DNA of 18,992 bases, from NCBI GenBank assembly GCA_024276815.1, contig JAJRWM010000216.1, positions 1 to 18,992 of the forward strand, in the 5' to 3' direction. The DNA comes from a bacterium (GTDB lineage Bacteria; JACRDZ01; JAJRWM01). The notes beneath the pieces were generated by a model. It had not been told where the DNA came from. It worked only from the letters and a program-made list of their open reading frames with translations, and ran no database searches. Both the position numbers and the translations under genes were made by a program. Numbering within the stretch: the stretch's first letter is position 1; each line of letters opens with the position of its first letter. Positions 233 to 17,225 of this stretch are shown here, piece by piece.

Positions 233-1190
233 CCGAAAAGACCTGTCAACAATTATGATTGTTGCCTGGTGCGGTCTGCTTACCGGGTCTCTGTATGGAG
301 CGCGAAACGCTTTTTCCCTGTATGAGGAAGCCCGGCAGAAAAACCGGGAGCCGTATGGCATACAGCTAAGAAGTTACCAGGCGCAGGTGAAGAACAACCT
401 GATCGATGATATCTTATCCTATGCCGAGGCGCGCCGTCCGGCTTTCTATTTTCCGGAACCGACAATTATCAGACAATTCTGGAAACAGGACCATCCGATC
501 TTCACCAGGTTGGAAGGCGACGACGCTCCCCTGGCTGTCAGGGATATCGTGGACAATTTTTTGATGTACAGCGGACAGGTGTTTTTTTCCGAGGTCTACG
601 GCGACACTGGCGCTGATTCGAGGGATGAGATCAGGAACCTGCGTCGCAACAGCCGGGCGAGGGTAAAGGAAGATGACACCCATTACTACCTGGTGTTTAC
701 CCCGCGGGGTGAGTTCATCGAATCGAACACCAAGGAACTGGGACTGCTAACGTTGGAAACCAGGATAACCCGTACCGAGATCGATATCCTCAAAAAGGGA
801 TTGTTGATAACGCGGACCCTCAGCGAGGGAGAGGTTAAAGTCTCGGGTAAAGAGAATTACCGGAAAAGGGTCGCGGCGGTCGCCGAGTTGGAATATCTGC
901 GAAAAGACGGGGTGAACCTGATAAGCCGGGTCAGGAGTTATAATGTAGGCGAGGATGACTATGAAAATCTGGTGACCTACTTTTATACTGAGAAAGACGG
1001 ATTTTATTTGCCTGAAAAAATAATCTCGCGGCAAAAAACAGTAAAAGACGGTAAAGAGCGGATTATGAATGTGGAAACCGTTTTCAGTGATTACCTGGTT
1101 AACCGGGATTTCAGCAAAAAAGCGGAGCTTGAATATCGGGCGTTTGAAGAAATGAACAGAGAACTGAACATAAGGGAGAAAACTCCATGA
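219..1190 (+). CDS. Secreted LolA/outer-membrane lipoprotein-sorting-like protein, function unknown
   Basis: The product is 323 aa from ATG 219. A GTG at 192 would add nine residues; ATG 219 is preferred because it gives a compact signal peptide (MGIISRKDL, then a hydrophobic stretch ending near SLYGA at residues ~9-28) and has a purine-rich GGGAAGAGAAG directly upstream. After the signal peptide comes a helical charged region. The C-terminal half (~residues 150-310) consists of alternating beta-like segments with the '[15 protein letters not shown]' and '[24 protein letters not shown]' style seen in LolA/LolB-fold lipid-binding proteins. That fold assignment is inferred from pattern and is not a firm family hit. 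It overlaps the leuA start as ATGA, implying translational coupling. Its role beside rlmN and leuA is not obvious; the predicted location is the periplasm. Confidence 0.6.
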
Positions 1191-2422
1191 ATGACAAAAA
1201 TATAGTAAAAATATTTGACAGCACGCTAAGAGACGGCGAACAGTCTCCGGGGGTTAGTCTTAACGTCGAAGAAAAAATAAAAATCGCCGAACAGTTGGTC
1301 AGGCTGAAGGTTGACGTAATCGAGGCCGGTTTTCCAATCACCTCCGTTGGAGACTTTGAGGCGGTTAAAGCTATCGCCGGGAATATAAAAGGGGTGACTG
1401 TTTGCGCTTTGGCCCGGACAGTCAAGGCTGATATTGACCGGGCCTACGAGGCGATCAAGGAGAGTGACGACCCGCGCATCCACACCTTTATCGCAACCAG
1501 CGACATCCATCTTAAGCACAAGCTGAGAAAAAGCCGCGATGAAGTGCTGGAGATGGCTTACAATATGGTCAAGTACGCCAAGAGTAAAACCGCTAATGTT
1601 GAGTTCTCCGCTGAGGACGCGACCAGGAGCGACCGGGATTACCTGTGCCGGGTTGTCGAAAGAGCGATTGAAGCCGGCGCCGTGGTGGTCAATATTCCGG
1701 ATACGGTGGGCTATATAACGCCTCCTGAGTTCGGTGATTTGATTAAATACCTGGCGGCTAACGTTAAAAATATCGAACAGGCCATTATCAGCGTGCATTG
1801 CCATAACGATCTGGGCTTGGCCGTGGCCAATTCCCTGATGGCCGCCAAGAACGGCGCCCGCCAGATCGAATGCACCGTCAACGGGATTGGCGAGCGGGCC
1901 GGCAACTGCTCAATGGAGGAAGTTGTCATGGGCATGGCCACTCGCTACGACTTTTATCAATGCCGTTCAGACGTTGAGCTAAAGCAGATATATCCGACCT
2001 CCCGCATGGTCAGCAGCTTGACCGGCATGGTCGTTCAATCCAACAAAGCGATTGTCGGCAGCAACGCTTTCGCTCACGAGTCGGGGATTCATCAGGATGG
2101 CGTGTTGAAAGAGCGTTCGACCTATGAAATAATGAGCGCCGAGTCCATCGGTCTGCCGACCAACCGGCTGGTGCTGGGCAAGCATTCAGGGCGTCACGCT
2201 TTTCGTGAGAGACTGGTCAGCCTGGGCTTTGAGCTGAGCGAAGAGGAGACAGAGAAGGCTTTCATTAACTTTAAAGAACTGGCTGACAAGAAAAAAGAGA
2301 TCTATGATGAAGATATTGAAGCGCTGGTTGAAGGAGTCGTGCTGGGTATCCCGGAAGTTTATCTTATGAAGTATGTTTACGGTGCCAGCGGATCGGACAC
2401 CATCCCGGAAGCTACGGTGTAA
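1187..2422 (+). CDS. leuA: 2-isopropylmalate synthase, catalytic part, ended by an in-frame TAA
   Basis: LeuA condenses acetyl-CoA with 2-oxoisovalerate in the first committed step of leucine synthesis. The 411-residue reading contains the HMG-lyase-like TIM barrel with [11 protein letters not shown] at residues 12-22, the metal-binding HCHND with His204 and His206, NGIGERAGN, and the HESGIHQDG block, so the catalytic core is complete. The start ATG 1187 overlaps the upstream TGA by 4 nt and has GGGAG about 8 nt upstream. TAA at 2420-2422 is codon 412. The same frame continues without other damage into the regulatory domain up to TAG at 2722, which would give 511 residues, the usual LeuA length. 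Homologues usually have a charged or polar residue at this site, within ATVxLxIDG. Translation ending here would give an enzyme without its leucine-sensing domain. Homocitrate and citramalate synthases are related, but the motifs and the leuC remnant downstream favour LeuA. Confidence 0.92.
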
Positions 2423-2425
2423 CTG

Positions 2426-2722
2426 GTGATTGACGGCAAGACCGTTCGCGGCACCGGTAACGGCGACGGGCCGGTAGACGCTGTATACAACACGATTGCC
2501 CAGCTCACGAAGACCGGGAGCCACCTTGAGTTCTACTCGGTCAAAGCGATCACGGGCGGCACCGACGCTCAGGGCGAGGTTACCGTTAGAATTGCCGAAG
2601 AAGGCGTTAAGGTAAGCGGGCGGGGATCTGATACCGATATCATCGTGGCCAGCGCTATTGCTTATATTAACGCTCTTAACCGTATGGAGTATCGGCTGAG
2701 ATTGCGTGGCCAGAAAAAATAG
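2426..2722 (+). CDS. leuA: LeuA C-terminal regulatory (LeuA dimer) domain, separated by a single TAA
   Basis: This is the same frame as the upstream leuA, resuming one codon after the TAA. The 98 residues from GTG 2426 match the LeuA allosteric domain: IDGKTVRGTGNGDGPVDAVYN, a central SHLEFYSVKAITGGTDAQGEV block, and a VSGRGSDTDIIVASAIAYINALN ending. In the family this domain binds leucine and mediates feedback inhibition. No second lesion is visible, so the interruption is recent, is read through, or is a sequence error. Reinitiation at GTG 2426 could also yield a free regulatory domain; GGAAG at about 2408 is a distant possible ribosome site. The final stop is TAG, followed 11 nt later by the fmdB-type gene. 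Confidence 0.85.
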   Translation: MIDGKTVRGTGNGDGPVDAVYNTIAQLTKTGSHLEFYSVKAITGGTDAQGEVTVRIAEEGVKVSGRGSDTDIIVASAIAYINALNRMEYRLRLRGQKK

Positions 2723-2733
2723 GGGGCTGGCGG

Positions 2734-2952
2734 ATGCCGTTATTTGACTTTGAATGCCAAAAATGTCATAAAAAACACGAACTATTGGTTGGTTCCTCGG
2801 AGAGTAAACCAGTCTGCCCCGATTGCGGCGGCGGATTAAGCAAGCTGCCTTCGCTTTTCGGAGTGAAAAGCGGCGGCGGCTTCAGGTCCTCACAGGGCGG
2901 CGGGAGCTGTCCCAGTGGATGTTCAAAAACAAGTTGCGGAACCTGCCATTAG
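2734..2952 (+). CDS. FmdB-family zinc ribbon protein
   Basis: A 72-aa protein beginning MPLFDFEC, the typical start of FmdB-type putative regulatory zinc ribbons. Cys8, Cys11, Cys28 and Cys31 form two CxxC knuckles that should bind one zinc ion. The tail is rich in Gly, Ser and Cys, with four more Cys in the last ~15 residues, and could be flexible or bind metal. The family is widespread in bacteria, but its molecular role is unclear; the name comes from a gene near a formamidase locus. It follows leuA by 11 nt with a G-rich leader (GGGGGCTGGCGG) and is probably in the same transcript. It ends with TAG. Confidence 0.85.
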   Translation: MPLFDFECQKCHKKHELLVGSSESKPVCPDCGGGLSKLPSLFGVKSGGGFRSSQGGGSCPSGCSKTSCGTCH

Positions 2953-3004
2953 TGCAAATAAGAACAAAGTCAAGGGCAAATTAAAAGCTTATGTAAGGCT
3001 TTTT

Positions 3005-3104
3005 AGGGGTAGCTCTTTTTAATTACAAAAACCGCTCCCCCTAAGACCCCCTCGCAAAAACTTAAATATGCCTTTGGCAAAGATAACTATCTGCAATTGA
3101 ACCT
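3005..3104 (+). repeat. Dispersed hairpin repeat, copy R1
   Basis: This is the best-formed copy of a repeat seen five times in this window. The left half is a hairpin: AGGGGTAGC at 3005-3013 pairs with GCTCCCCCT at 3034-3042 (8 of 9 pairs), and inside it TTTTT at 3016-3020 pairs with AAAAA at 3027-3031. It is followed by a second C-run and a conserved GCAAAAACTTAAATATGCCT. The right half is looser. No T-run follows the stem on either strand, so it does not look like an intrinsic terminator. It fills the 175-nt space between the zinc ribbon gene and the DUF1844 gene. Confidence 0.75.
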
Positions 3105-3127
3105 TAAACACGCTAATGGGGGAAATG

Positions 3128-3481
3128 ATGAGTGACAATGATTTGAAAAACACTGAGAATGAAGCGGCGGAAAAAGAAGAATCTCAGGGAAACAATAACA
3201 GCCAGCGGAAAGCGCCGATAATTCCGGTTGCCCACGTGGTCACCAACAATATCTTCATGCTTCTGAGCCTGTCTTTACAACATATGGGGATAACGCCTGA
3301 GATGGAGCAGGCTGAGGAACCGCAAAGCGATATTGACCTCGAAGAGGCTCGACTGGCTATCGATTTATGCGATCTTCTGCTGCAAAGAATAAAAAACAAA
3401 CTGGCGGCGGAAGAATGCAAGGGGCTGGAAGATATGCTGGCCAACGCCCGTTTTTGCTATGTCCGTCTGGTAAACAAATAG
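3128..3481 (+). CDS. DUF1844 family protein
   Basis: The product is 117 aa from ATG 3128. Earlier ATGs exist at 3116 and 3125, but GGGGGA at 3118-3123 is suitably placed only for 3128. The first ~30 residues are acidic and probably disordered. The rest shows the DUF1844 pattern: a hydrophobic IFMLLSLSLQHMGI segment, then DLEEARLAIDLCDLLLQRIKNKL and a C-terminal helix ending ...ANARFCYVRLV. DUF1844 proteins are small helical bacterial proteins of unknown function. The gene lies between two hairpin repeats and ends with TAG. Family assignment is from memory of the pattern. Confidence 0.75.
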   Translation: MSDNDLKNTENEAAEKEESQGNNNSQRKAPIIPVAHVVTNNIFMLLSLSLQHMGITPEMEQAEEPQSDIDLEEARLAIDLCDLLLQRIKNKLAAEECKGLEDMLANARFCYVRLVNK

Positions 3482-3522
3482 CATAAAAGATCAAAGCAAG
3501 ATCAATAAAAAAATAGATTAAT

Positions 3523-3565
3523 TGGGGGAGATCTTTTTAATTACAAAAACCGCTCCCTCTAAGGC
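3523..3565 (+). repeat. Dispersed hairpin repeat, copy R2 (left half only)
   Basis: GGGGGAG at 3524-3530 faces CTCCCTC at 3553-3559, with one G-T pair, around the TTTTTAATTACAAAAA core. A 26-base core is identical to R1. The right half found in the other copies (GCAAAAACTT and beyond) is missing; the sequence after about 3565 is unrelated. It lies 42 nt past the DUF1844 stop and about 35 nt before the leuC remnant start. Confidence 0.65.
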
Positions 3566-3600
3566 GCCCTTCTTTCTATTAATAAAGGAGTTACTTGTAA

Positions 3601-3714
3601 ATGACCAAGATGACAGTTGCAGAGAAAATTCTGGCGGCTCATGCCGGAAAAGACGAAGTCAGGCCCGGAGATTACATCATGGGCAGTCATGCTGTTCTCT
3701 TGCGCTTGAAATAA
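3601..3714 (+). pseudogene. leuC: leuC remnant: N-terminus of 3-isopropylmalate dehydratase large subunit
   Basis: ATG 3601 has AGGAG about 10 nt upstream. The first 26 codons (MTKMTVAEKILAAHAGKDEV then RPGDYI) match the N-terminus of LeuC/aconitase-type dehydratase large subunits, which isomerise 2- and 3-isopropylmalate in the step after LeuA. From about 3679 the frame gives eleven unrelated residues and a TAA; the expected nucleotide and Fe-S cluster regions, roughly 390 residues, are absent. The last part overlaps the stop codon of the opposite-strand TVP38 gene at 3687. The leader and start still look normal, so the break is probably a rearrangement or insertion junction and not old decay. 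The rest of leuC is not in the window. Confidence 0.75.
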
Positions 3715-4373
3715 TTGTAAACAGCCGGAACCAGGGCGAACAGCGCTAATAGCAAAAAAGCGATTAATATCTTGACCGAGAATATGTCTTGAGGTGACTC
3801 TATCGTGTTAAGCTGACTGCCGGCGAAGGTATAGACCAGCGAGCCTGGCAAAATACCCGCCGAGGTCGTCCAGATAAAGGTTCTGAGCGGGATTTGAGTT
3901 AAGCCGGCTAAAATATTAATCAGAAATAAGGGGAAAATCGGGATAAATCTCAGGGTTAAAAGATAGCTGAAACCGTTTAGGGCTAACTCCTGATTGAACT
4001 TGTTTAGTTTCTCCTGATATTTCTCCTGAAACCAATGACCGACTAAATAGCGGGCAAAGATGAACGCGGCGGCGGCTCCCAGCGTCGCTCCGACGTTTGC
4101 GTAAATGGCGGCCGGTAACGTGCCGAAGAGGAAACCGCCCGACAAGGTCAGAATGGTCGCTCCCGGCAGGGAAAGACCGGCAACGGCGATATAGGTAAGA
4201 ATAAAACCGACAACAGCCTGCGGGTAATTATTCTCAACAAAATACTGGAGCTGCGTTTTATTTTTTTGCAGGTTTTCAAAGGTGAGATATTCGCTAATTC
4301 CCGCCGCTCTGGTTAAAATGATGAGAGCCAGCAAGATAAGAATTATGAGTATTTTTTTTTGGTAACCTTTCAT
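3687..4373 (-). CDS. TVP38/TMEM64 family (VTT domain) membrane protein
   Basis: A 228-aa integral membrane protein of the inner membrane. Hydrophobic segments lie at about residues 8-26, 52-70, 80-112, 136-158, 168-187 and 200-222. The VTT/SNARE-associated signature is visible as LSGGFLFG (77-84), NVGATLGAAAAFIFARYLVG (93-112) and LRFIPIFPLFLINILAG (141-157). Relatives include DedA-like proteins implicated in membrane lipid handling; the substrate is unknown here. The start ATG 4373 comes one nt after the TAA of the oxidoreductase gene upstream, so the two are translationally coupled. TVP38 proteins and this type of oxidoreductase are often adjacent or fused in other bacteria (established association). 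It ends TGA, and the C-terminus KRKRTA looks natural although the leuC junction is only ~8 bp further on. Confidence 0.88.
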   Translation of the reverse strand: MKGYQKKILIILILLALIILTRAAGISEYLTFENLQKNKTQLQYFVENNYPQAVVGFILTYIAVAGLSLPGATILTLSGGFLFGTLPAAIYANVGATLGAAAAFIFARYLVGHWFQEKYQEKLNKFNQELALNGFSYLLTLRFIPIFPLFLINILAGLTQIPLRTFIWTTSAGILPGSLVYTFAGSQLNTIESPQDIFSVKILIAFLLLALFALVPAVYNYFKRKRTA

Positions 4374-4374
4374 C

Positions 4375-5817
4375 TTATTCCTTTTTGTCCCTGGAGGTCA
4401 TTTTTTTCAGAACTTTTAAAAAGGGGTTGTTCTGGAGTTTTTGGATGTAATCCTGTTTGCCGGCCTGCCTGGTAATATCCGAGTAGGTCGGGTAAGCGTG
4501 GATTACCGATTGGATTTTGCTGAAAGGAATATTAAAGGATTTGATAATCTGCGCTTCATGGATTAATTCCCCGGCGTTTTTGCCCAGGATGTGCGCGCCG
4601 AGCAACTTGTCATGGTGGTCGCAGATAAATTTCGCTCTGCCGGTTGTGGCCAGGTCTGTTTTCGCTCGATCCAGATTTTTATATTCATAGGTGAAGATTT
4701 TAATGTTAGCGCCATATTTTTCTCTCGCTTCGGCTTCGGTTATACCAAGGTGAGCGAACTCAGGATCGGTGCAAGTCGCCCAGATGATATTGCTGTAGTC
4801 TACCTTTTTCCTGATGGGCAACAACGCGTTAGTGGTAGCGATAACGGCCTGATACTCAGCGATATGGCTGAAACGATAGGGGCCGACGACATCGCCGCAG
4901 GCATAGATATTGGGAGCCGTGGTTTTCAGGTGTTCGTCCGTTTTTATACCCTGAGCGCTATACTCAACGCCGGCATTTTCCAGATTAAGGCCTTCAGTGT
5001 TGGCTTTGCGGCCGACGCCGGTAAAAAGCATATCCGCGTGGATTTCTTTTTCTTCGTTATTTTCATCTTTAACCGTGAGAACGACTCCGCCGCCCCGATG
5101 CGCTACCTTGACGGGTTTGGTGTTGATCATAATCTCGATTCCTTCTTTAACCAGCGCCTGTTTGAGGATTTCCGCCAGTTCCTGGTCATCCCTTTTAAGT
5201 ATTTCACCACTGCGGTGAACAATGGTCACCTTGACTCCAAGGCGGTGCAAAGCCTGCGATAACTCAATGCTTATCGGGCCGCCGCCAATCGCGATCAAAG
5301 ACTCGGGCAGAAATTCCAGATCAAAGAGATTATTGTTATTTAAATATGAGATTGATTCAATGCCTTCTATTGAGGGAATAGCCGGTCTTGAGCCGGTGGT
5401 TATGACAATTTTCTCCGCCCTGATTATAGTGTCGCCAATTTTCACCTGATGGTTATCCAGGAATTCCGGCTCGCCCAAAAACACTTTGATCCCTTTGCTC
5501 TCAAAAATCTCAGGCGTCTCATCCACGTATACTTTTTCCCGGACCGCTCGGACATGCGCCATGACGTTATTCGTGTTAAGTTCCAGCTCGTTTTGCACGA
5601 CCAGGCCATAGTCTTTCAGGTTATTAATGTTATGAGCGATATTGCTGGCCCTGATCAGAGCCTTACTGGGAACGCAACCGGTCCAGGTGCACTCACCGCC
5701 TAATTTCCTTTTTTCAATAATGGCCACACTTTTACCCAGCCCCTTAGCTGTGTTGGCAGCCGTAATACCGCCGCCGCCGCCGCCAATGACCAAAAAATCG
5801 ACATTGATGCTTTCCAT
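4375..5817 (-). CDS. FAD/NAD-dependent pyridine nucleotide-disulfide oxidoreductase (mercuric reductase-like)
   Basis: The product is 480 aa from ATG 5817, chosen because GGGAGGAAATAAA lies immediately upstream; the open frame reaches back 28 more codons without family similarity. The order of parts is the FAD-binding motif at residues 11-17, the redox pair Cys43/Cys48 in GGECTWTGCVPSK, the NAD-binding IGGGPISIELSQALHRLG, the second FAD motif IYACGDVVGP, and a dimerisation domain with HAYPTYSD near the C-terminus. The fold is that of dihydrolipoamide dehydrogenase and mercuric reductase, but no N-terminal heavy-metal domain is present and the substrate is unknown. The FAD motif is six consecutive Gly, encoded by a GGC-rich tract, where GxGxxG with Ala is usual. 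It is coupled to TVP38 downstream, and repeat R3 lies upstream. Related oxidoreductases are common in ArsS clusters. Confidence 0.9.
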   Translation of the reverse strand: MESINVDFLVIGGGGGGITAANTAKGLGKSVAIIEKRKLGGECTWTGCVPSKALIRASNIAHNINNLKDYGLVVQNELELNTNNVMAHVRAVREKVYVDETPEIFESKGIKVFLGEPEFLDNHQVKIGDTIIRAEKIVITTGSRPAIPSIEGIESISYLNNNNLFDLEFLPESLIAIGGGPISIELSQALHRLGVKVTIVHRSGEILKRDDQELAEILKQALVKEGIEIMINTKPVKVAHRGGGVVLTVKDENNEEKEIHADMLFTGVGRKANTEGLNLENAGVEYSAQGIKTDEHLKTTAPNIYACGDVVGPYRFSHIAEYQAVIATTNALLPIRKKVDYSNIIWATCTDPEFAHLGITEAEAREKYGANIKIFTYEYKNLDRAKTDLATTGRAKFICDHHDKLLGAHILGKNAGELIHEAQIIKSFNIPFSKIQSVIHAYPTYSDITRQAGKQDYIQKLQNNPFLKVLKKMTSRDKKE

Positions 5818-5924
5818 TTTATTTCCTCCCTGCACCTTGGCCTGGGCCAACTCCATACCCAAAAGTTCAGATTCCTTTAAAGCAAAGTGCAACCTTAGCA
5901 AAGGCGATCAAAGATAAAGTTCTT

Positions 5925-6027
5925 AGGGGGAACTCTTTTAAATTGCAAAAACCGCTCCCCCCCCCTTGCAAAAACTTAAAATATGCCTACCGCAAAAAGG
6001 TTACATCTGCTCGCAACCCGCTCTAGT
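5925..6027 (+). repeat. Dispersed hairpin repeat, copy R3
   Basis: AGGGGG at 5925-5930, a TTTTAAATTGCAAAA core, then GCTCCCC running into nine consecutive C, TTGCAAAAACTT, ATATGCCT, CGCAAAAAGG, and an end in CAACCCGCTCTAG. It aligns with R1 over its whole length, apart from a shortened spacer where the two C-runs have fused. It lies in the 215-nt gap between the oxidoreductase start and the end of the DUF2064 gene, antisense to both. The nine-C tract is slippage-prone. Nothing else was recognised in this gap. Confidence 0.75.
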
Positions 6028-6032
6028 AAAAA

Positions 6033-6707
6033 TCATATTCGGCAATTACTTAGAAATCTTAACGTGTTTGAGTCCTTTAAATCGGTGTTGGTGTTTCTGT
6101 TGGCCAAATTGATTAAATCATCGATTGTGTCAACGTCCTGCCAGCATGGTAAAACCTGGTAACGATAATTGTTTTTCTCAAATTTGGCGCGGGTCTCGGC
6201 AAAAACCTTTTCCGTACTCCAGGAGATGCCCTCGAAAAATCCGGCCAGAAAGGTGTCCCGATTAAAACCGATTAAATAATAACCGCCGTCGTCAGCCGGG
6301 CCAATAACCGCGTCATTGTTTTCCAGAGCGCTAAAAGCGTCCGTGATAATTTGGGCGGGCAGGTCAGGGCTGTCGCTCCCAATAACAATTATCCTTTTAT
6401 AACCATTTTTGAGGCACCGCTTGAAAGCGTTTGCCAGCTTCTCGCCAAGACTTTCACCCGTTTGACTGAAAAAGCTGATTTCGTCGCCTAACCATTGCTT
6501 AAACTTATCCACTGATTGCGCGGGATAAACGCAGACATGGTAAGGGATAGCCAGAGTCTTGATGGTCGCTAATATATCCAGAATAAAATTTCTGTACAAA
6601 GTAACTGTTATTTCCTCGCCCAGCGATGCGGCCAGGCGGGTCTTTACTCGGCCCGCTTCGGGAAATTTGACGAAAAAGAGAAGGCACCTGTTTTCCCGGC
6701 TGATCAA
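6033..6707 (-). CDS. DUF2064/TIGR04282-type glycosyltransferase A-fold protein (rSAM/selenodomain-associated)
   Basis: A 224-aa protein with a GT-A/nucleotidyltransferase-like fold. Visible blocks are FVKFPEAGRVKTRLA (12-26), IVIGSDSPDLP (107-117) and GPADDGGYYLIGF (136-148), which together identify the DUF2064 'CofC-like' family. These proteins are usually annotated as glycosyltransferases on the basis of fold; the donor and acceptor are unknown. The start is TTG 6707, whose TTGA overlaps the TGA of the upstream DUF3047 gene, a strong sign of translational coupling. The last ~20 residues are Asn/Thr-rich and may be extra. The family commonly occurs with the TIGR04283 transferase and ArsS, as here. 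Repeat R3 begins a few nt past the stop. Confidence 0.88.
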   Translation of the reverse strand: MISRENRCLLFFVKFPEAGRVKTRLAASLGEEITVTLYRNFILDILATIKTLAIPYHVCVYPAQSVDKFKQWLGDEISFFSQTGESLGEKLANAFKRCLKNGYKRIIVIGSDSPDLPAQIITDAFSALENNDAVIGPADDGGYYLIGFNRDTFLAGFFEGISWSTEKVFAETRAKFEKNNYRYQVLPCWQDVDTIDDLINLANRNTNTDLKDSNTLRFLSNCRI

Positions 6708-7561
6708 TGGTAGACCTCAATATAATCAATGAAGGACACGGAGCTTTCGCCCGTGTTGTCAGAGTCGTTCATGATGGCGATGCTGGCCCTGGCGGGCGGG
6801 GGCTCGCCAAACGCAGCCTGGTAATCCTCGACAATATTTACCCGCTCGTTTTGCCAACTCCCCAGGTTTTTGACGCCTTTTTGCCGGATTATCATTTTGG
6901 AGCGAGAGGTGTAAGCGCTGGTGATAAAATATTCCCGGTGATTTTTGTTGGCCCAGATATAGTTGAGACCGCTGTCCGGGGGATATTCGCCGTAAACAAG
7001 TTTCGCCGTGTTATATTTAACCTTGTCGAAAAAACTGGCGGAGTCCGGATTATATTCAAAAATGATGTAAACGCGAAGAGGATAATCATCGCCTTTTTTA
7101 GTTTTCGCGTCTCCCTTCTGATAAACATTTTCGACCTTCCAGCGCCATTTCACCAGCGGGTACTCGTAGACATTGAACTTGTTTTTGTATATCAGGCCGG
7201 ACGCGGAGGCCTCGCTGGCGGTTTTCAAAAAACTTTCCGCGCCATTTTTTTCAATCTTGTAGGTTGAATGTTTTTTTATTTTGGGGAAGGTTAGCGGTTT
7301 CCAGTTCTTCAGATCGTTGAAATCCTCCCTGAACAACGAAGCTGGTTCCCGGGCGAAACCACAAATAGCTATCCAGACAAGGAATAATACGATTAGAGAA
7401 AAATGCAACCAAGCGTAAATTTTGTCAGGGGGACTCTTTTTAGAAAAAAAACGTCCCCCTGTAACCCCCTGCAAAAACTTTAGTTGGCCGGTGGCAAAAA
7501 AAATACATCTGATTGCCACCCGTTCTAATTTTTTTTGGGCTAGTTTTTGGAGGCTAAACAT
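6704..7561 (-). CDS. DUF3047 family secreted protein with a repeat-encoded N-terminal extension
   Basis: The ORF encodes 285 aa. The C-terminal ~210 residues match DUF3047: FREDFNDLKNWKP, VKWRWKVENV, the signature DDYPLRVYIIFEY, LNYIWANK and a final SSVSFIDYIEVYH. Function is unknown; a beta-sandwich with carbohydrate-binding-like features is a guess. A signal-like hydrophobic segment (HFSLIVLFLVWIAICGFA) sits around residues 53-70. The ~34 codons before it coincide with dispersed repeat R4 read antisense. ATG 7561 has a good ribosome site (AAAGGAG, 9-nt spacing), favouring a start before the repeat. TTG 7408, just ahead of the signal segment, would give a normal 234-aa secreted protein but has no visible ribosome site. 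The gene is coupled to the DUF2064 gene by TTGA overlap. Confidence 0.8.
   Translation of the reverse strand: MFSLQKLAQKKLERVAIRCIFFATGQLKFLQGVTGGRFFSKKSPPDKIYAWLHFSLIVLFLVWIAICGFAREPASLFREDFNDLKNWKPLTFPKIKKHSTYKIEKNGAESFLKTASEASASGLIYKNKFNVYEYPLVKWRWKVENVYQKGDAKTKKGDDYPLRVYIIFEYNPDSASFFDKVKYNTAKLVYGEYPPDSGLNYIWANKNHREYFITSAYTSRSKMIIRQKGVKNLGSWQNERVNIVEDYQAAFGEPPPARASIAIMNDSDNTGESSVSFIDYIEVYH
7427..7527 (+). repeat. Dispersed hairpin repeat, copy R4, inside the DUF3047 reading frame
   Basis: AGGGGGAC at 7427-7434 pairs perfectly with GTCCCCCT at 7453-7460 around a TTTTT...AAAAAAAA interior. Then come a second C-run, GCAAAAACTT, GGCCGGTGGCAAAA, ACATCTGATTGCCACCCGTTCTA. Compared with R1, both arms have changed together (AGC/GCT versus GAC/GTC), keeping the pairing. 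On the minus strand this copy contains no stop in the DUF3047 frame. Confidence 0.75.
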
Positions 7562-7677
7562 GTAGCCAGTCTCCTTTTTTCAAACATTTAATAATGTTGT
7601 AGGTGTTGAATTAGAGGATTTAAATAATGTTTCGGTTCTTTTATCTCTAAATTATTTACCTGCCGGCCAGTGTTAAT

Positions 7678-9340: not shown

Positions 9341-9456
9341 AGTTTAATGCTCATGAAGAGTCGCCTTCTCTTCTCCTTGAACCTGGGATGCCGGGTTGGG
9401 ATTTCCATAACCTCAAAAGTTTAAGTTGCTCTTAACAAACACATGTAAGGCAAAAT

Positions 9457-9552: not shown

Positions 9553-9623
9553 ATATCTCCGGCCATGTCGCTCGTTCATTCTGTCCTGGTAAGGCGTCAG
9601 TCTTCCGGGGAAAAGACCTTATT

Positions 9624-9678
9624 TGTCATTCCCGTGCCAACGGGAATCCACTAGATTCCTGCATATGCTGGCATGACA
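9624..9678. repeat. REP-like palindromic element (GTCATTCCCG type)
   Basis: TGTCATTCC at the left end and GGCATGACA at the right end are inverted repeats with one mismatch. Inside, ATTCCCGT/ACGGGAAT (9628-9647) forms a perfect 8-bp stem with a GCCA loop, and a second weaker palindrome (GCATATGC) follows GATTCCT. This is the general form of the widespread TGTCATTCCCG...GGAATGACA bacterial interspersed palindromes, many of which are linked to RAYT transposases. It directly abuts the stop codon of the ligase gene on the minus strand, so it may also act as an mRNA 3' stabiliser or weak terminator. Confidence 0.75.
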
Positions 9679-11928
9679 TTACTGGTTCCCCCACTTCACT
9701 GACGGGTTACCTGTCCTGCCTGTTTTCACCCTTTTTACTTTACCAAGCCGGATCAGGTTGCTGAGCGCCAGCTTGCCTTCTTCGCTGTTGGGATAGCCCC
9801 TTGATATTTTCCGCCATTCCATTACCGCTCGCTCAACATCGCCGCTTTGCTCATAGGCGTACGCGAGATTAAACTGTGCCCTCAAATATTCCGGTCGCAA
9901 TTCCAGAGCTAACTGGTACTGCCCGACAGCTTCCTGGTATTTGTTCATTTCCAGATAGGTGTTACCAAGGTTATTATAGGCGGAGACAAAGGAGGGATCA
10001 AGAGCGATCGTTTTCGTAAACTCCCGAACAGCCTGTAGGTAGCGTTTAGTCTGTTTGTAAACTACGCCCAGGTTGTTATGGAAAGGCGCCTTGTCCGGCT
10101 CAGATTGGATGGCCTGCAAATAATAAATCGCCGCATGGTCAGTTTTGTTCTGTCTGAACATTAAGTTGCCGAGGTTGTAATATATCTCGGCAAGCCCAGG
10201 ATTTATTTTGAGCGCACCCTGAAAACTCTGTTCCGCCAGATCAAATTGTCCCAGCAGGGCGTAAAGACCGCCCAGGTTGTTAAACACTTCCAAAAAGTTA
10301 GGATTAATCAACAACGCTTTTTTGTAAGCGTCGACAGCCAGATCATATTGCCCTGCTTCTTTATATAGCTGGCCCAGGTAATTATAGGTATGATGATAAT
10401 TAGGACTTAGCTTGATTACTTTCTGATAAGCTTGTATCGCTTTTTCAGCGTCTCCCTGCTCTCTCAAAATATTACCCAGCAACAGGTAGTTTTTATAGTC
10501 GCAATCATAAAGACTTATGGCCTTCCGAAGCTCTTCCGCCGCCTTGGGCAGATTGCCCTTTTTATATTCATTAAGAGCGTTCCTGGTAAAGGTATTGCTG
10601 GCGAAAGGATAGTAAACGTAAAACAAGGTTACCAGGCCAAAAAGACAAGCCCCGGTATAGAGTATCCATCTGATATTATATATAAACTCAAATTCGTATT
10701 TTCTCTGCCGGGCCGGCTCGATAACGCTCAGCAGGCACCCGCTGAAAAACCAGAACATAACGGCGGTCGCCGGATTAGTCAGATTAAAACTGTTCATACC
10801 GTTAAAAACCAACACCAGCCAGCCAGCGCCGTAGGCTACCGCTAAATTATATTCCTCGCTGTCTTTTCGCAGGAAACGAACCATCTGGAAAAAAACGATC
10901 AACAGGAAACCGATAAACGACAGACCGCCGACAACGCCCTGCTCAATAGTTGTCTCCAGGTAATCATTATTTAAATGCTCGTTGTTGTATTGAATGTTCA
11001 GCCAGCTCTCGTTTGAAGCGTAGGGGGGGAAGGCGTAGGAGAAATTACCCTTGCCGACCCCGAACCAGGGATTGTCAAAAATGATATTTTTACTCTCCCG
11101 CCACAAGCGGAAGCGGCTGTTAAGCTCCTGGTTGTCTTTGTTGAAATACAGCGAAAACCCAACCACTGAGCACAACAAAATGGTTAACAGCAATCTGATA
11201 AGAGACGCTTTGCCGTGTCCCGCCGTATGAGGGGAGCTTAGGGCGAGATAGTAGATCACAACAATTCCGGCGAAGAGGGAGAGCGCACTGCTTAAATTCA
11301 TGGTCAGGCCCAGGCTGATAATCATACATGCCGTACAGGCCAGGATTAATTTACTGAAAAAGGTCTTGCCGTTTTCCCGGGCGAGCACAAGACCGACCGG
11401 TATGATCGGCGCCAGCCACTGGGCGTTGAAACTGGCGCTGCCCAGAGTATGCAGGGCCGCCCTGATATTATTATGAAAAACATATAAACGCAGTTTGGTC
11501 AAGAGGTAGTAGGCCGCGACAACGCCGCCCGCTAAAACCAGGCTGATGCTGATAACCACGAGTTTGCGCGTGCCGAGTTTGCGCTGGCTGATGATTAAAA
11601 AGAACATGATCAGTAGCAACAGCTCGGTCGATTTTAACAGGGCGAGCGGAGGGTTTACTGAAAATGGTATGGAAAACACTAACGTGGCCAGAAAAACCAT
11701 CAGGGGCCAGTAACTTTTATAGAAGGCTAAATAGATGCACCTTCGATAAATTATATAAAACCAATATATGGTAATAAGGATAATAAGGGAGAACTGGGTG
11801 AAGACAGACTTAATCAGAAGATAGCTTTCCGTGGTTTGAGAACTGTAGATTAAAGCGACCAGTATGAGCGCGACGGCTGTCGCCAGCCCCGCGTAGAACT
11901 CGAAAGTTTCCCTGCTTAGCTCTAACAT
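9679..11928 (-). CDS. O-antigen ligase/Wzy_C-domain membrane protein fused to TPR repeats
   Basis: A 749-aa two-part protein. Residues 1-440 are polytopic membrane sequence with a long external loop carrying the ligase/polymerase signature: SRFRLWRESKNIIFDNPWFGVG (271-292, including Arg272 and Trp276) and HLNNDYLETTIEQGVVG (318-334). After the last membrane segment, about residues 450-735 form roughly eight TPR units with the usual LG/Y/A/P spacing, probably for protein contacts on the periplasmic side. The family transfers or polymerises undecaprenyl-linked glycans, or glycosylates proteins (PglL-type); which applies here is unknown. The start ATG 11928 is 2 nt past the stop of the Cache protein, with no ribosome site of its own, so it is translationally coupled. 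It ends TAA, immediately followed by a REP-like palindrome. Confidence 0.88.
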   Translation of the reverse strand: MLELSRETFEFYAGLATAVALILVALIYSSQTTESYLLIKSVFTQFSLIILITIYWFYIIYRRCIYLAFYKSYWPLMVFLATLVFSIPFSVNPPLALLKSTELLLLIMFFLIISQRKLGTRKLVVISISLVLAGGVVAAYYLLTKLRLYVFHNNIRAALHTLGSASFNAQWLAPIIPVGLVLARENGKTFFSKLILACTACMIISLGLTMNLSSALSLFAGIVVIYYLALSSPHTAGHGKASLIRLLLTILLCSVVGFSLYFNKDNQELNSRFRLWRESKNIIFDNPWFGVGKGNFSYAFPPYASNESWLNIQYNNEHLNNDYLETTIEQGVVGGLSFIGFLLIVFFQMVRFLRKDSEEYNLAVAYGAGWLVLVFNGMNSFNLTNPATAVMFWFFSGCLLSVIEPARQRKYEFEFIYNIRWILYTGACLFGLVTLFYVYYPFASNTFTRNALNEYKKGNLPKAAEELRKAISLYDCDYKNYLLLGNILREQGDAEKAIQAYQKVIKLSPNYHHTYNYLGQLYKEAGQYDLAVDAYKKALLINPNFLEVFNNLGGLYALLGQFDLAEQSFQGALKINPGLAEIYYNLGNLMFRQNKTDHAAIYYLQAIQSEPDKAPFHNNLGVVYKQTKRYLQAVREFTKTIALDPSFVSAYNNLGNTYLEMNKYQEAVGQYQLALELRPEYLRAQFNLAYAYEQSGDVERAVMEWRKISRGYPNSEEGKLALSNLIRLGKVKRVKTGRTGNPSVKWGNQ

Positions 11929-11930
11929 GA

Positions 11931-14150
11931 TTATTTAGTATCGGGTGTCCGTTTCACTGGGGTAATACTTTTCTTTGCTTTTTTGCCGCTTTTGCTTTTT
12001 TTCATATCTTTTAAAACCATATCGACCTCCTCGGTTGAAAGGCCTATTCTGATTAATCCTAAAGCTCTATTTGCTTCTTTGAGCGGCTGGACAATCTCCA
12101 GGTTTCGGGCCAAACCTCCCGCGGTTGGCCGGGTCTTCGTGGCCACAACCGTCTCGCCCGCGCTATCAACGATCATAACATAATTAACGTTCTCCTCCTT
12201 CTGCGCCCAGCCAACGGCATCCTGCAAATCTTTGATTTTGCCGTCTTTGATAAACTTGACGCAAGCCGCGGCGATGCCTCTGGCAATGACAGCCCCGCGC
12301 TTTTTGAGAGCGTCACGCATCAGTTGGCGGACCTCCTGCTCGCTGAACAACGCGCCTATTTCTTCTTCTCTTTGCCGGGCGGCTTTGAGCAAGGTTGGTT
12401 TTAATTCTCCGAAGGTCTGAACCCGGTATTTGGGAGGCGGGTTGATTTTAAAATCGTTATCGGCGAACAATCCATTAATCTGCACGTCATCATAGCTGAT
12501 GGTAAGAATGTTTACCCCCTGCGGATCAAACCACTCCAGTTTGGCCGGCATAAAATAATCTCCGTGGATCATTATCCTCAGCTTGGCGAAGGTCAGCCCC
12601 TTGGAGACAATGTTCTGTTTTAGCAGCATGGTGATTACGTAGGTGGGGACATCGTTGATGATCTTGATATCAAAAGTGTCATTGCCGAATTTCTCAAAAT
12701 CAAGAGAGGCGAACTGGCGGGGGATATTGACCAGTTCATCGTTAACCAGTTCCTGATAATCCTTCAATTCCTCCGCTTTCATGGTGATGACCCGCCGTTC
12801 CGAAGGTTTAATCACCGTGGCCTTGTTGTATCTGGTGACAATCGACTCGCTGAGAAATGACGGAGATATCACTTCGAACCTGGTTTGTTTATAATATTGT
12901 TCATCGAAGTCGTTGTAAGTGATGAGGGTGTTTTTGTTTTTCTCCATCAGCCGCTGATAGCTGCTTTTCCGGACCTGATTGGCGGACTGGCGTATTTTCA
13001 ACCGATATTTGACTCCGTCCGGCGAAGTGACCTCCAGCTTGGTCAACACCCTCAGGCTGTTAATTTTCTGATTTCTCAGCGAACCGTCCAGAACTTTTCT
13101 GGTCGCCTGGCTGATTGGCGATAATTGCTTGATTTCCCGCGGAGGAGGTTCCGCTTCTGTCACCGCTGTGCCCAATGAATCCGTTTTCGGCGCGGCTGAT
13201 TTCTCCGGCGGTTGAGCGGCGTCAAATTGAGCTGTTGTGTCCAAAACCGCTGCCGGGGATTCCGCCCCAACATCCGGGGTGACAGGGAGCTTTGGTTGTT
13301 GGGGCGCCGCCGCGTTGAGGGGTTTCACCACTCCAACAAACCAGCCCATCTGGGAATAGGGAGCGAAGCCAATTTCATACCGGCTTTCGCCAACCTGATA
13401 TTCCGCGACGCCTGATTCCTCAGTCAACATCAGCTGGAAAACGTTTTTCAAGCCCTCAGTATCAGTTATTTTATCGTTAAGAATTTTCTTTCGCTCGGGA
13501 TGGTAGATATAATTGCCTTCCCCGTCAACAATGATGACATGGCCATTGTTCTCAATCTTGAAATTCGTGATAAGATCGGTAATTGACTGAGGTGTCCACT
13601 CAAACAGTAAAACTCCTTTGTCCATATTGCTTATATCAACCAGGGGAGTCGCCAACTGGATAACCTTCTTATTGGTAATATTTGAGGTCAGCAAAGAAGA
13701 AACATAGATATCGCCGGGACTCAGCTTCATGGTTTCCCTGAAATAACCTTTCGCGCTCTCGTCGTTGTAGCTCTTCACCTGGATACCGTCAACCACCTTG
13801 AGTTCCTCAATCCCCCGATCGTTGACAATTTTGATGACCTGGTAATGTTTAAACTCGCGGGCGAAATAAATGATGTTGCTTGCCCAGGCGGATCGTCCCC
13901 CCTTGCCAAATTTTTTTATCCCCTTGGCCAGGACCAGGATATCCTTACCTTTATCGTTAATCTGGATATTAATCTGTTTAATCAGAAGATTCGCCTGCTC
14001 GAGCAGTTTATTGTCAGTGGCAGTATTTGCCTTTTCCGTTTCTTCCGATAGCGGAGTAATCTTTTCCTGTCCCCAGGCTCCGAGAGTTAAACAGGCTATT
14101 AAAAAGATATTTATGACAATAAATTTACCTGATTTATCGATTTTATACAT
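11931..14150 (-). CDS. Periplasmic Cache-LolA-like-Cache-like multidomain protein
   Basis: A 739-aa exported protein. Residues 1-27 are a signal peptide (hydrophobic IVINIFLIACLTLGAWG). Residues ~45-278 resemble a double Cache sensor, with the typical GHVIIVDGEGNYIYHPE near 203-219. A Pro/Ala-rich linker covers ~280-345. Residues ~360-590 look LolA/lipoprotein-sorting-like: FDIKIINDVPTYVITM, a PAKLEWFDPQGVNILTISYDDV hairpin and NDFKINPPPKY. Residues ~600-715 look like another sensory domain (NVNYVMIVDSAGETVVATKTRP, then LGLIRIGLSTEEVD). A Lys-rich tail follows. No later membrane segment or kinase, cyclase or methyl-accepting domain is present, which is unusual for Cache proteins. AGGAGATCAAATG at the start overlaps the kelch gene stop. 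Ligand and role are unknown; the domain calls are pattern inference. Confidence 0.65.
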   Translation of the reverse strand: MYKIDKSGKFIVINIFLIACLTLGAWGQEKITPLSEETEKANTATDNKLLEQANLLIKQINIQINDKGKDILVLAKGIKKFGKGGRSAWASNIIYFAREFKHYQVIKIVNDRGIEELKVVDGIQVKSYNDESAKGYFRETMKLSPGDIYVSSLLTSNITNKKVIQLATPLVDISNMDKGVLLFEWTPQSITDLITNFKIENNGHVIIVDGEGNYIYHPERKKILNDKITDTEGLKNVFQLMLTEESGVAEYQVGESRYEIGFAPYSQMGWFVGVVKPLNAAAPQQPKLPVTPDVGAESPAAVLDTTAQFDAAQPPEKSAAPKTDSLGTAVTEAEPPPREIKQLSPISQATRKVLDGSLRNQKINSLRVLTKLEVTSPDGVKYRLKIRQSANQVRKSSYQRLMEKNKNTLITYNDFDEQYYKQTRFEVISPSFLSESIVTRYNKATVIKPSERRVITMKAEELKDYQELVNDELVNIPRQFASLDFEKFGNDTFDIKIINDVPTYVITMLLKQNIVSKGLTFAKLRIMIHGDYFMPAKLEWFDPQGVNILTISYDDVQINGLFADNDFKINPPPKYRVQTFGELKPTLLKAARQREEEIGALFSEQEVRQLMRDALKKRGAVIARGIAAACVKFIKDGKIKDLQDAVGWAQKEENVNYVMIVDSAGETVVATKTRPTAGGLARNLEIVQPLKEANRALGLIRIGLSTEEVDMVLKDMKKSKSGKKAKKSITPVKRTPDTK

Positions 14151-14158
14151 TTGATCTC

Positions 14159-14629
14159 CTAGTTAGTGATTATTTTAATAATTTCCCCGACTTTGGATAG
14201 CTGGTTTAATTCCACCTTTTTGGCTTGCTCGCCAAAATTTCCGCCCACCAGCAAATAGCCGCCGCGATTTAACAAGGTCATAGTATGTTCTTCGCGAGGC
14301 GTATTTAGTTTTTTGAGAGAATCAAAACGACCTTTTAAAACATTATAAATTTCCGCGTTTGCCAGCACCCGCCTGCCGCTCCGACCGCCAGTGACCAGAA
14401 CCAGCGCCGAGCGTGAGACAGCCGCCGCCGCGTGGGAACTGCGGGCTTCTTTCAGCGAACCGGTCAAATAAAAACGTTCGGTTGAGGGATCGTAAATTTC
14501 CGCGCTTCTCAAGTCGCCGGTATAATTTCTACCGCCGGCAATCAAAACCCGGCCGTCAGCAAGCAAAGTCGCCGTATGGCAGGCGCGCGCGTATTTCATA
14601 TCGCTGATTTTTTGGCTTATATTGGTCAC
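14159..14629 (-). CDS. Kelch-repeat lipoprotein, C-terminal part (blades 5-7) after an in-frame TAA
   Basis: The segment is in the same frame as the upstream kelch ORF and begins five codons after its TAA. It contains three more kelch units marked by ACHTATLLADGRVLIAGG, SSHAAAAV...LVLVTGG and EEHTMTLLNRGGYLLVGG, with AEIYDP and AEIYNV between them. Together with four units upstream this makes seven, the count of a closed beta-propeller, so the two ORFs are one gene. ATG 14629 has no convincing ribosome site and would start inside blade 5, making an independent product unlikely. It ends TAG 8 nt before the Cache gene, with the stop embedded in that gene's ribosome site. Confidence 0.75.
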   Translation of the reverse strand: MTNISQKISDMKYARACHTATLLADGRVLIAGGRNYTGDLRSAEIYDPSTERFYLTGSLKEARSSHAAAAVSRSALVLVTGGRSGRRVLANAEIYNVLKGRFDSLKKLNTPREEHTMTLLNRGGYLLVGGNFGEQAKKVELNQLSKVGEIIKIITN

Positions 14630-14641
14630 CGGATCATAAAG

Positions 14642-15340
14642 TTAAGCGCCTTTATTATAATATAAAGCCCCATTCTCAGTGTACCATCCTCCGGTAAAAA
14701 GAATAAAGCCATTTTTCAACAAAGTAGCCGTACGGTTCGCGCCTTTATAATAGGTTCGGCCAACCAGTTTGAAGTTATTGGCCAAAGGAGAATAAACCTC
14801 AACCGTGGAGAGGGGCTTCTTGCCCGAATTACCGTTGGCGAGCAAGACAAAACCATTGGCAACCAGGGTGGCGGTGTGCGCGTAGCGTGAGTTTTCCAGA
14901 GGGGGAGCCGCGACGCTCATGTTTTGTGAAGGGTTGTATAATTCACTACAAAACAACGTTTTGGAACCATTTTTACCACCAGCGATTAATACCCGGCCGT
15001 CGTTCAGCAAGGTCGCGGTGTGTTGACTCCTGGGATTATCCAGAGTAGCGTTATTAAGAAACATTTCTTTTTTCACATCATAGATCTCGCATCGGTTTAA
15101 AGGAACAAAGCGATCCAGTTCAGCGATGTAAGTTTCTCCGCCGGCAATAAACAGATCTCCATTTTTCAACAAGGTCGCGGTATGCGCTCTCCGGTTGATA
15201 TTCAGGTTGGACGCGTAATCCACCTCAAACCCAACTAATCGGGAGGGAGAGTTAAGCAGAAACCGGGGGGTGCAGCCGGATAAAAAGAGACAGAAGGCTA
15301 ACGAAAAGCAAACAACAATTTTTATTATTTTTTTCAACAT
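14642..15340 (-). CDS. Kelch-repeat lipoprotein, N-terminal part (blades 1-4), ended by an in-frame TAA
   Basis: ATG 15340 is chosen over GTG 15349 because it gives a compact lipoprotein signal (MLKKIIKIVV then a hydrophobic stretch) with lipobox LSGC and acylated Cys23; Thr at +2 suggests the outer membrane. Four kelch units follow, with RRAHTATLL, SQHTATLL, YAHTATLV and ANRTATLL. The TAA at 14644-14642 is codon 233, inside GA*LYDP. In the other blades this column is always Glu (CEIYDV, SELYNP, VEVYSP, AEIYDP, AEIYNV), so a Glu codon is expected. Full length with the site read as sense would be 393 aa. Kelch propellers are protein- or glycan-binding scaffolds. The gene heads the operon with the Cache protein and the O-antigen ligase. 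Confidence 0.78.
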   Translation of the reverse strand: MLKKIIKIVVCFSLAFCLFLSGCTPRFLLNSPSRLVGFEVDYASNLNINRRAHTATLLKNGDLFIAGGETYIAELDRFVPLNRCEIYDVKKEMFLNNATLDNPRSQHTATLLNDGRVLIAGGKNGSKTLFCSELYNPSQNMSVAAPPLENSRYAHTATLVANGFVLLANGNSGKKPLSTVEVYSPLANNFKLVGRTYYKGANRTATLLKNGFILFTGGWYTENGALYYNKGA

Positions 15341-15367
15341 AAATCTCACAATAATATTTGAACGCTA

Positions 15368-15376
15368 ATTTTAACA
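15368..15376 (-). promoter_or_regulatory. Possible extended -10 promoter for the kelch-Cache-ligase operon
   Basis: Read on the minus strand this is TGTTAAAAT, matching the extended -10 pattern TGnTAnAAT, 27 nt upstream of the kelch start. The -35 region is poor. It sits in the 134-nt gap between the GNAT stop and the kelch start. Weak evidence only. Confidence 0.25.
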
Positions 15377-15474
15377 AATATTCAGGATGTTTACCATCGT
15401 TACTCCCGCTTTATACCGCTATGTATGCTGGTATTGTTGTTCGCATCACGAATATCCCGGCCAGGCGGTTGGAA

Positions 15475-15945
15475 TCAGGGGACGTGTCTATCTTCGGGAA
15501 TAGTAAAAAGCATCGGAATTTCGTTGCAATCCATGTAATTTGTACAGTTTACACATTCCTGCCAGATTTTACTAGGTAAAATTTCCTTGTCTACTTTTCG
15601 GAAGCCTCTTTTTTCAAAAAAATCAGGTATGGGTGTCAGGACAAAAATCCGCCTTATGCCTAATTCGCCGGCTTCATCGAGCGCTTTATTTACCAACTTG
15701 TTACCTAAGCCCTTATTTTGAAATTCCGCTGAAACAGCCAGCGATTTAATCTCAGCCAGGTTTTCCCAGCACACATGAAGCGCGCAGCAACCTACGATTG
15801 AGCCTTTTTTTTCAACTAAAATAAAATCACGCAAATTCTCGTAGATCTGGATTGGCGAGCGGGGTAACACCAGGCGTTCTTTGGCGAAACCATTTATTAA
15901 CCGCTGGATGCTTTTGACGTCGTTATTATTGGCTTTTCTTATCAT
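15475..15945 (-). CDS. GNAT N-acetyltransferase, N-acetylglutamate synthase type
   Basis: The product is 156 aa from ATG 15945, with AAGG just upstream; the open frame extends 19 codons further without similarity. It begins MIRKANNNDVKSIQRLI and contains LPRSPIQIYENLRDF, VGCCALHVCWENLAEIKSLAV, the acetyl-CoA loop QNKGLGNKLV, a VLTPIPDFFEKRGF block, and the Cys-containing ending KIWQECVNCTNYMDCNEIPM. This pattern is that of the short single-domain acetyltransferases that acetylate glutamate to start arginine synthesis in many bacteria (often annotated argA or the acetyltransferase of ArgH(A)). It is transcribed away from wecB across a 149-bp divergent spacer. No other arginine gene is near. 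It ends TGA. Confidence 0.82.
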   Translation of the reverse strand: MIRKANNNDVKSIQRLINGFAKERLVLPRSPIQIYENLRDFILVEKKGSIVGCCALHVCWENLAEIKSLAVSAEFQNKGLGNKLVNKALDEAGELGIRRIFVLTPIPDFFEKRGFRKVDKEILPSKIWQECVNCTNYMDCNEIPMLFTIPEDRHVP

Positions 15946-16026
15946 TACCTTAAACCGCTTTTGATTTTCGATTATCTTATTTGAGCGGCTTGAAAAAGTC
16001 AAGTCCCAACAAGTCTTAAACCGGGT

Positions 16027-16056
16027 TTGTTAGGTGGGTTGAATCTATGTTAAGAT
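16027..16056 (+). promoter_or_regulatory. Possible sigma70-type promoter for wecB
   Basis: TTGTTA (16027-16032) and TAAGAT (16051-16056) are separated by 18 nt, and the -10 box lies about 38 nt before ATG 16095. This is the divergent spacer between the GNAT gene and wecB. Matches are moderate and untested. Confidence 0.35.
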
Positions 16057-16094
16057 AGCCTCTGCCTGAAAAAACAGAATTGAAGGTTAGTGAT

Positions 16095-16223
16095 ATGAAA
16101 AACATTTTATTTGTCTTTGGCACCCGACCTGAAGCGATTAAACTGGCGCCGCTGATCAGGGCTTTTCGGGAATATAATAATGATTTTAGGGTAAAAGTGT
16201 GTGTGACAGCTCAGCATCGGTAA
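16095..16223 (+). pseudogene. wecB: wecB N-terminal segment (42 codons) ended by an in-frame TAA
   Basis: ATG 16095, with GAAGGT upstream, opens a frame reading [20 protein letters not shown] and on to CVTAQHR, which is the standard WecB/MnaA N-terminus, including the GTRPEAIK nucleotide-binding loop. TAA at 16221-16223 is codon 43. In homologues the next residues are (E or Q)MLDQVL, and the frame continues exactly so after the stop. The segment alone is too short to function. Reading the codon as sense gives 376 residues, the usual WecB length. Confidence 0.8.
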
Positions 16224-17225
16224 ATGCTGGACCAGGTGCTGGAGTTCTTTGACATACGAACTGATTACGACCTTGATCTGATGAGGCCCGATCAAACCCT
16301 GTTTGATATCACCGCCCGGGGGCTTAAGGGGCTGGAGGCAGTGCTGGACGACTTTAATCCCGACCTGGCGCTGGTGCATGGGGACACGACAACGGCTTTC
16401 GTCGGCGCGCTGGCCGCCAGTTACAGGAAGATCAGCGTGGCTCATGTCGAGGCCGGGTTGAGGAGGTACAATAAACATTCGCCGTTTCCCGAGGAGATAA
16501 ACCGCAAACTGGCCGGGCATTTAGCCGATTATCATTTCGCGCCGACCCTGAAAGCGAAGCGTTGTCTCGAAAACGAGGGCATCAAGGAAAATGTCCGGGT
16601 GGTTGGCAACACGGTAATTGACGCGCTGTATCTGGCTTTGGAGATAATCAGAAAAACTGGCGAACGCAATTATCGTGAGCATTTTGATTATCTTGATTTT
16701 TCCCGCAAGCTGATTTTAATTACCGGTCACCGGAGAGAAAGCTTTGGTCAGCCTTTTGAAAACATCTGTAACGCTTTGCAGGAACTTTCAGGGAAGTTCC
16801 CCGACCTTGAAATGGTCTATCCGGTTCACCTTAATCCTCATGTCCGGGAGCCGGTAAACCGAATACTCAAAAACAATCCCCGGATCCATCTGGTTGAACC
16901 CCTGGAATATCCATATCTTGTCTGGTTGATGAATAAATCGTATTTTGTCTTGACTGATTCCGGCGGCATCCAGGAGGAGGCTCCGTCTTTGGGTAAACCG
17001 GTACTTGTCATGAGAGAGGTTACTGAGAGGACGGAAGGTATTGATGGCGGCACCGCCAGGCTGGTCGGCACTGACCGGGATGTCATTGTCGCTGAAGCGT
17101 CAAAGTTACTGAATGATGATAATGAGTATCTGAAAATGTCTCGGGCGGTTAACCCCTACGGAGATGGAGACACCAGCGCTAAAATTGTTCAGATTATCTT
17201 GAAAGAATATGCGGGAAAACCTTAG
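16224..17225 (+). CDS. wecB: UDP-N-acetylglucosamine 2-epimerase (non-hydrolysing), body after the in-frame TAA
   Basis: The enzyme interconverts UDP-GlcNAc and UDP-ManNAc, providing ManNAc-type sugars for surface polysaccharide. From MLDQVLEFF onward the family blocks are all present: LVHGDTTTAF (Asp97 of the full frame), HVEAGLR (Glu119), PEEINRKLAGHLADYHFAPT, VVGNTVIDAL, ITGHRRESFG (His212, catalytic region), YPVHLNPHVREPV, and TDSGGIQEEAPSLGKPVLVMR. Starting at ATG 16224, which directly follows the TAA (TAAATG), gives 333 aa but lacks the GTRPE loop, so such a product would probably be inactive. Reinitiation there is possible. It ends TAG. The wzz-type gene follows after ~300 nt, consistent with a polysaccharide locus. 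Confidence 0.9.
   Translation: MLDQVLEFFDIRTDYDLDLMRPDQTLFDITARGLKGLEAVLDDFNPDLALVHGDTTTAFVGALAASYRKISVAHVEAGLRRYNKHSPFPEEINRKLAGHLADYHFAPTLKAKRCLENEGIKENVRVVGNTVIDALYLALEIIRKTGERNYREHFDYLDFSRKLILITGHRRESFGQPFENICNALQELSGKFPDLEMVYPVHLNPHVREPVNRILKNNPRIHLVEPLEYPYLVWLMNKSYFVLTDSGGIQEEAPSLGKPVLVMREVTERTEGIDGGTARLVGTDRDVIVAEASKLLNDDNEYLKMSRAVNPYGDGDTSAKIVQIILKEYAGKP

Follow-up and report, generated by a model that had tools for sequence, protein, structure and literature searches.

The in-frame TAA codons that interrupt leuA, a kelch-repeat lipoprotein gene and wecB are, with a probability that we put at roughly 60% and judging from the assembled sequence, part of a genome-wide scatter of G-to-T changes in the recorded consensus, produced by damage or error, and would not belong to the inherited genome. 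The window analysed here, 18,992 nucleotides in length, is the whole of contig C153 of a draft genome of 2.39 Mb (246 contigs, 91% complete, 3% contaminated). The interruptions, as reported in a first-pass annotation of the window, were confirmed, while the readthrough that it had left open found no support, and the stops most likely represent no biological feature.

Three interrupted genes in the window

The leuA gene, encoding 2-isopropylmalate synthase (positions 1187-2722, plus strand), specifies a protein of 511 residues in one reading frame with a single TAA inside (2420-2422). The NCBIfam model NF002086 matched the translation from residue 2 to 503 in one stretch across the TAA (785 bits), and in an alignment to 103 homologs 123 of 124 conserved columns were intact, the remaining one showing a conservative deviation. 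The column of the TAA itself is variable in the homologs (T in 32, K in 18, R in 11, V in 10, Q in 6 and E in 5). A comparison with related genomes had been proposed, and the best match to LeuA proved to be open in all matching relatives but one, which carries one TAG (G017, 60% identical). The kelch-repeat lipoprotein gene (14159-15349, minus strand) was matched by the Pfam models Kelch_4 and Kelch_6 on either side of its in-frame TAA (14642-14644), and the gene's own internal repeats suggest that the codon replaces a Glu. Finally, wecB, encoding UDP-N-acetylglucosamine 2-epimerase (16095-17225, plus strand), was matched by TIGR00236 in one stretch across its TAA (16221-16223; 479 bits, residues 4-370). 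All 55 conserved columns of wecB were intact, the TAA column holds Glu in 10 of 13 homologs (Q, D and G once each), and none of the wecB matches in relatives contained an internal stop.

The translations and family models revealed neither frameshift nor deletion in the three genes, and the claim that each carries one clean in-frame TAA, with full-length sequence on both sides, was borne out at these coordinates. The more general description of the stops as single, clean, TAA-rich and located at Glu-, Gln- or Lys-type positions likewise held. The bases following the internal TAAs had been given as C, A and C and read as leaky contexts; they are in fact C in leuA, C in the kelch gene and A in wecB, the last two having been swapped. 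For the four genuine TAA terminators, the next bases are G, A, T and T, as stated. The leaky-context argument is weak, since the bases after the internal stops are what one would expect from the codon that follows within a gene.

Two further observations concern the leu region of the window. At 3601-3690, leuC has a normal start (MTKMTVAEKILAAHAGKDEVRPGDYIMG) and is cut after about 30 codons, at about 3683, where genes on the opposite strand follow. The half of the genome that was read contained no remainder of this leuC, only a divergent paralog (L039), and the cut probably reflects a junction in the assembly or a rearrangement; the abrupt end means that the assembly has at least one suspicious join. 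In addition, two intergenic direct repeats of 47 bases (3006-3052 and 3524-3570), 89% alike, lie upstream of two small leu-region genes, and a shorter core of this repeat occurs in five copies in the 1.2 Mb read.

In-frame stops and base changes across the genome

The survey of in-frame stops covered about 1.2 Mb, corresponding to about half of the draft genome, and yielded about 20 credible in-frame stops among 99,672 aligned codons. In the control, comprising 80 loci from other genomes and processed by a similar method, about one credible stop (a TAG in L192) was found among 230,436 codons; the other control stops turned out to be alignment shadows or true ends of genes. The rate in the source genome is thus well beyond chance. 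The alignments used reference proteins derived from 80 related loci, from 13 stretches of E. coli K-12 and from the relatives' LeuA loci, and the nearest genomes compared share only the phylum with the source. Homology was required for calling a stop, as codon and codon-pair scores alone mix true gene ends with read-through candidates. Credible sites were parted from alignment shadows by eye, in the genome and the control alike, and antisense shadow alignments were left out in the same way (e.g. L061, L140 and L258, antisense of rpl and rpo genes).

The interrupted genes include gap, ptsI, cimA, phoH, clpX, cysS, ahcY, ilvB, glyA, plsX and rplA, and prmC and pyrH carry two in-frame stops each; among them gap, ptsI, clpX, cysS, glyA, prmC and pyrH are core genes, interrupted with intact flanks. 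Further candidates came from codon-pair scoring, and several of these were supported by family models that extend across the stop, namely glyA, glnA, plsX, rplA, tig, ygiQ, menA, murF and the genes for a rubrerythrin, an OmpH and a cNMP-binding protein. Among ABC_tran domains, one TAA was present in the genome's own 33 matches, compared to none in the listed matches from five relatives. TAA predominated, and TAG was also common, occurring in prmC (twice), ilvB, gltD, plsX and glmU. In glyA, a TGA occupies the position of an invariant Gly (YAEGYPGRRYYGG; YAEGYP-G-RRYYGG, PDB sequences compared). A search for a motif in the sequence surrounding the stops found none. Instead of the equal numbers of frameshifts and of the three stop types that the first-pass annotation had named as evidence against its proposal, we observed a single frameshift in the source genome, as opposed to seven in the control, and unequal stop types. 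The rarity of frameshifts and the unequal stop types indicate a substitution-specific G-to-T process rather than ordinary gene decay.

The two TAGs of prmC, which encodes the release-factor methyltransferase and adjoins prfA, are located at 9849 and 10362 of L097 (contig C226), and the same contig carries a murA with an Arg-to-Leu change at a fully conserved position. On contig C140, a tandem pair of tRNA-Gln (UUG) genes differing by one base (L157, 1501-1575 and 1681-1755) is situated just upstream of the glmU with the in-frame TAG.

The replaced residue could be assigned at 16 sites, with Glu at 14, Gly at one (the TGA of glyA) and Gln at one (phoH, DEA-Q-N). Homologs vary at the leuA site and at both pyrH sites, which were left out of these 16, and the residue at the first prmC site is weakly assigned. 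At five of the 14 Glu sites (kelch, cysS, GT4, menA and ygiQ) the residue is one that we take to be Glu from family motifs or repeats. TAA accounted for 11 of the Glu sites and TAG for three, which fits the genome's usage of GAA and GAG (p = 0.18). A G-to-T change explains 15 of the 16 sites; compared to all single-base routes from the genome's codons to a stop, this share gives p of about 3e-10, and the p-values are approximate because some Glu assignments derive from known motifs or repeats instead of alignment. The phoH site would require a C-to-T change, and G-to-T thus accounts for nearly all site types, but not all. The complement direction (Ser, Tyr or Cys to stop) was not represented among the 16 assignable sites, and the ratio of G-to-T to C-to-A on the coding strand was 15 to 0 (p of about 8e-4, rising to 0.04 when the count is restricted to the GpA context).

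Missense changes of the same type, at catalytic or invariant residues, were also encountered. At a position where Arg occurs in 29 of 29 relatives, the single-copy murA encodes Leu, a G-to-T missense, and iscS encodes Trp in place of a Gly shared by all five PDB relatives shown. Radical G-to-T missense changes at conserved sites were about 3.0-fold more frequent than in the control, compared to about 1.7-fold for most other types (C-to-A 1.7), a contrast confounded by natural variation. Stricter bulk tests were dominated by natural divergence (about 40-50% identity), to which much of the excess could be due, and we regard the bulk excess as supporting but not decisive. Conserved Asp-to-Tyr and similar changes were tried as evidence in several test designs and were swamped by natural divergence, and the Gly-to-Cys matches in valS, mraY, a nifS-like gene and thiC look like natural variants; only murA and iscS were retained. 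The rRNA genes were located but left out of the comparison for want of statistical power.

Origin of the stops and alternative explanations

A change of the first G of GAA, GAG or GGA to T would produce TAA, TAG or TGA, respectively, and G-to-T elsewhere in codons would produce missense. A possible route is that oxidised or otherwise damaged guanine was copied as T, or that an error arose, and that the change was kept where few reads cover the site, in which case the proteins of the living cell would most likely be uninterrupted. Among the known causes of artefactual G>T, oxidation ranks first (PMC12390751). A consensus error had been listed in the first-pass annotation as a competing explanation, and it is favoured by the G-to-T spectrum, the mix of TAA, TAG and TGA, the missense changes in murA and iscS and the scarcity of frameshifts. 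The changes in core genes would be hardly bearable for a living cell, and we therefore place the substitutions in the recorded consensus and infer damage or consensus error, rather than inheritance, as their cause. What speaks against a consensus artefact is the strandedness of the changes: damage in whole-genome shotgun data should affect both gene orientations alike, whereas the counts are 15 to 0 for coding-strand G-to-T. This apparent bias is not explained by an artefact in the consensus. It would be covered, jointly with the G-to-T changes and the absent indels, if the DNA of starved or dead cells had truly contained oxidised G, mostly on the coding strand as the exposed one, and if this G had been copied as T with few molecules sequenced. 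We consider this improbable, as the strand bias is modest, the residue assignment is partly by inference and a very low effective depth would be required.

A strand bias would also arise more easily in vivo, through transcription or replication, than ex vivo, as would be the case if the mutations were real and heritable and the lineage were a G-to-T mutator with a defect in oxidised-guanine repair, evolving under weak selection with its interrupted genes broken or polymorphic. Loss of mutY has a G-to-T signature in E. coli (Nghiem 1988, as cited in PMC11078426), and no mutY above the family cut-off was found in the genome. The sole match to the mutY model, below the cut-off, is an Nth-like HhH-GPD protein of 220 amino acids on contig C36 (L067, 4861-5376), and mutM is present. 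The genome may lack a true mutY or carry it in the unassembled part, and with the genome 91% complete its absence is weak evidence. Such a lineage appears unlikely, given that stops and catalytic changes fall in the core genes murA, pyrH (twice), prmC (twice), gap and cysS, that the flanks are intact, as are nearly all the other conserved columns (123 of 124 in leuA, 55 of 55 in wecB), and that frameshifts are nearly absent, whereas indels and every type of stop would be expected of a genome in decay. A degrading lineage had been the other competitor named for the window; ordinary decay would give frameshifts and spare murA, pyrH and cysS, and it is disfavoured by the interrupted core genes, the rare frameshifts (one compared to seven in the control) and the rarity of TGA.

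The remaining alternative is translational. UAA and UAG might be partly read as Glu or Gln while still terminating, through leaky termination or an ambiguous code like that of Blastocrithidia, in which UAR = Glu together with a dual UAA exists (PMC12153298). In keeping with this, the sites are overwhelmingly Glu, TAA is more frequent than TAG, the interrupted genes look otherwise intact and essential, and two of the stops lie in prmC, the gene for the methyltransferase that acts on release factors. The translation machinery, on the other hand, offers no counterpart. The first-pass annotation had recommended a search for a tRNA with a UUA anticodon and for altered RF1 or RF2; 33 tRNA genes were found in the 91% complete genome, the anticodons of those that were read are ordinary and include no UUA, CUA or UCA, and both RF1 (PVT and GGQ) and RF2 (SPF and GGQ) are standard. 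Its conclusion that wholesale reassignment of TAA is excluded stands, TAA being the terminator of 170 of 382 long ORFs, with TGA ending 136 and TAG 76, shares that are unremarkable. Across the genome, TAA is also the terminator in 12 of the 23 genes that contain one internally, as often as in other genes, and UAA would consequently need two meanings within one gene; glyA, with its internal TGA, itself ends in TGA. The three interrupted genes of the window all terminate in TAG, which suggested two mixed codes in which interrupted genes never end in TAA. This was ruled out by the 12 of 23, and the three TAG endings are a matter of chance. Moreover, the TGA at an invariant Gly in glyA and the missense changes in murA and iscS would need a second explanation, and the stop-codon reassignments known to date in bacteria are confined to UGA (PMC8629427). 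Taken together with the TAG sites, these results leave readthrough or suppression unsupported, and a dual meaning of UAA and UAG is quite improbable. The specific version in which the two codons are partly read as Glu, by misreading or by a tRNA in the missing 9%, and still terminate, with unrelated errors behind the changes in glyA, murA and iscS, is very improbable.

Consequences and comparison with known systems

If the stops are indeed G-to-T changes in the consensus, the genome would be expected to contain roughly a hundred false stops or more, extrapolating from 20 per 100,000 codons, and silent or missense changes would be several times as many. Gene calls, essentiality estimates and screens for recoded genomes would be misled. 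Should the coding-strand bias be real, it would suggest that guanine damage can be preserved, resolved by strand, in a draft genome.

The occurrence of TAA and TAG in place of Glu codons in intact core genes is a close imitation of a Blastocrithidia-like code, and among known systems this eukaryote comes nearest to the combination of UAR = Glu and a dual UAA (PMC12153298). The two cases share in-frame TAA and TAG at Glu positions in conserved genes and the use of TAA as a terminator. Blastocrithidia, however, has cognate UAR tRNAs, an altered eRF1 and UAA as its sole stop, whereas the present genome has normal RF1 and RF2, uses all three stops (TAG still ends 76 of 382 long ORFs), shows TGA at Gly and missense changes, and yielded no cognate tRNA among the tRNA genes read. 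The glyA TGA resembles the bacterial UGA reassignments (codes 4 and 25) in that a stop aligns with a sense residue, but unlike in those codes UGA ends 136 of 382 long ORFs, including glyA, and RF2 is intact. A mutY-type mutator spectrum shares the G:C to T:A transversions, and mutY was not found here; unlike in such a mutator, the mutations fall in essential genes and would be hardly tolerable for a living lineage. The G-to-T sequencing artefacts caused by 8-oxoguanine have been ascribed to single-stranded capture probes and do not appear consistently in matched whole-genome data, whereas the putative changes described here are fixed in a draft consensus; what both have in common are single-base G-to-T changes without indels.
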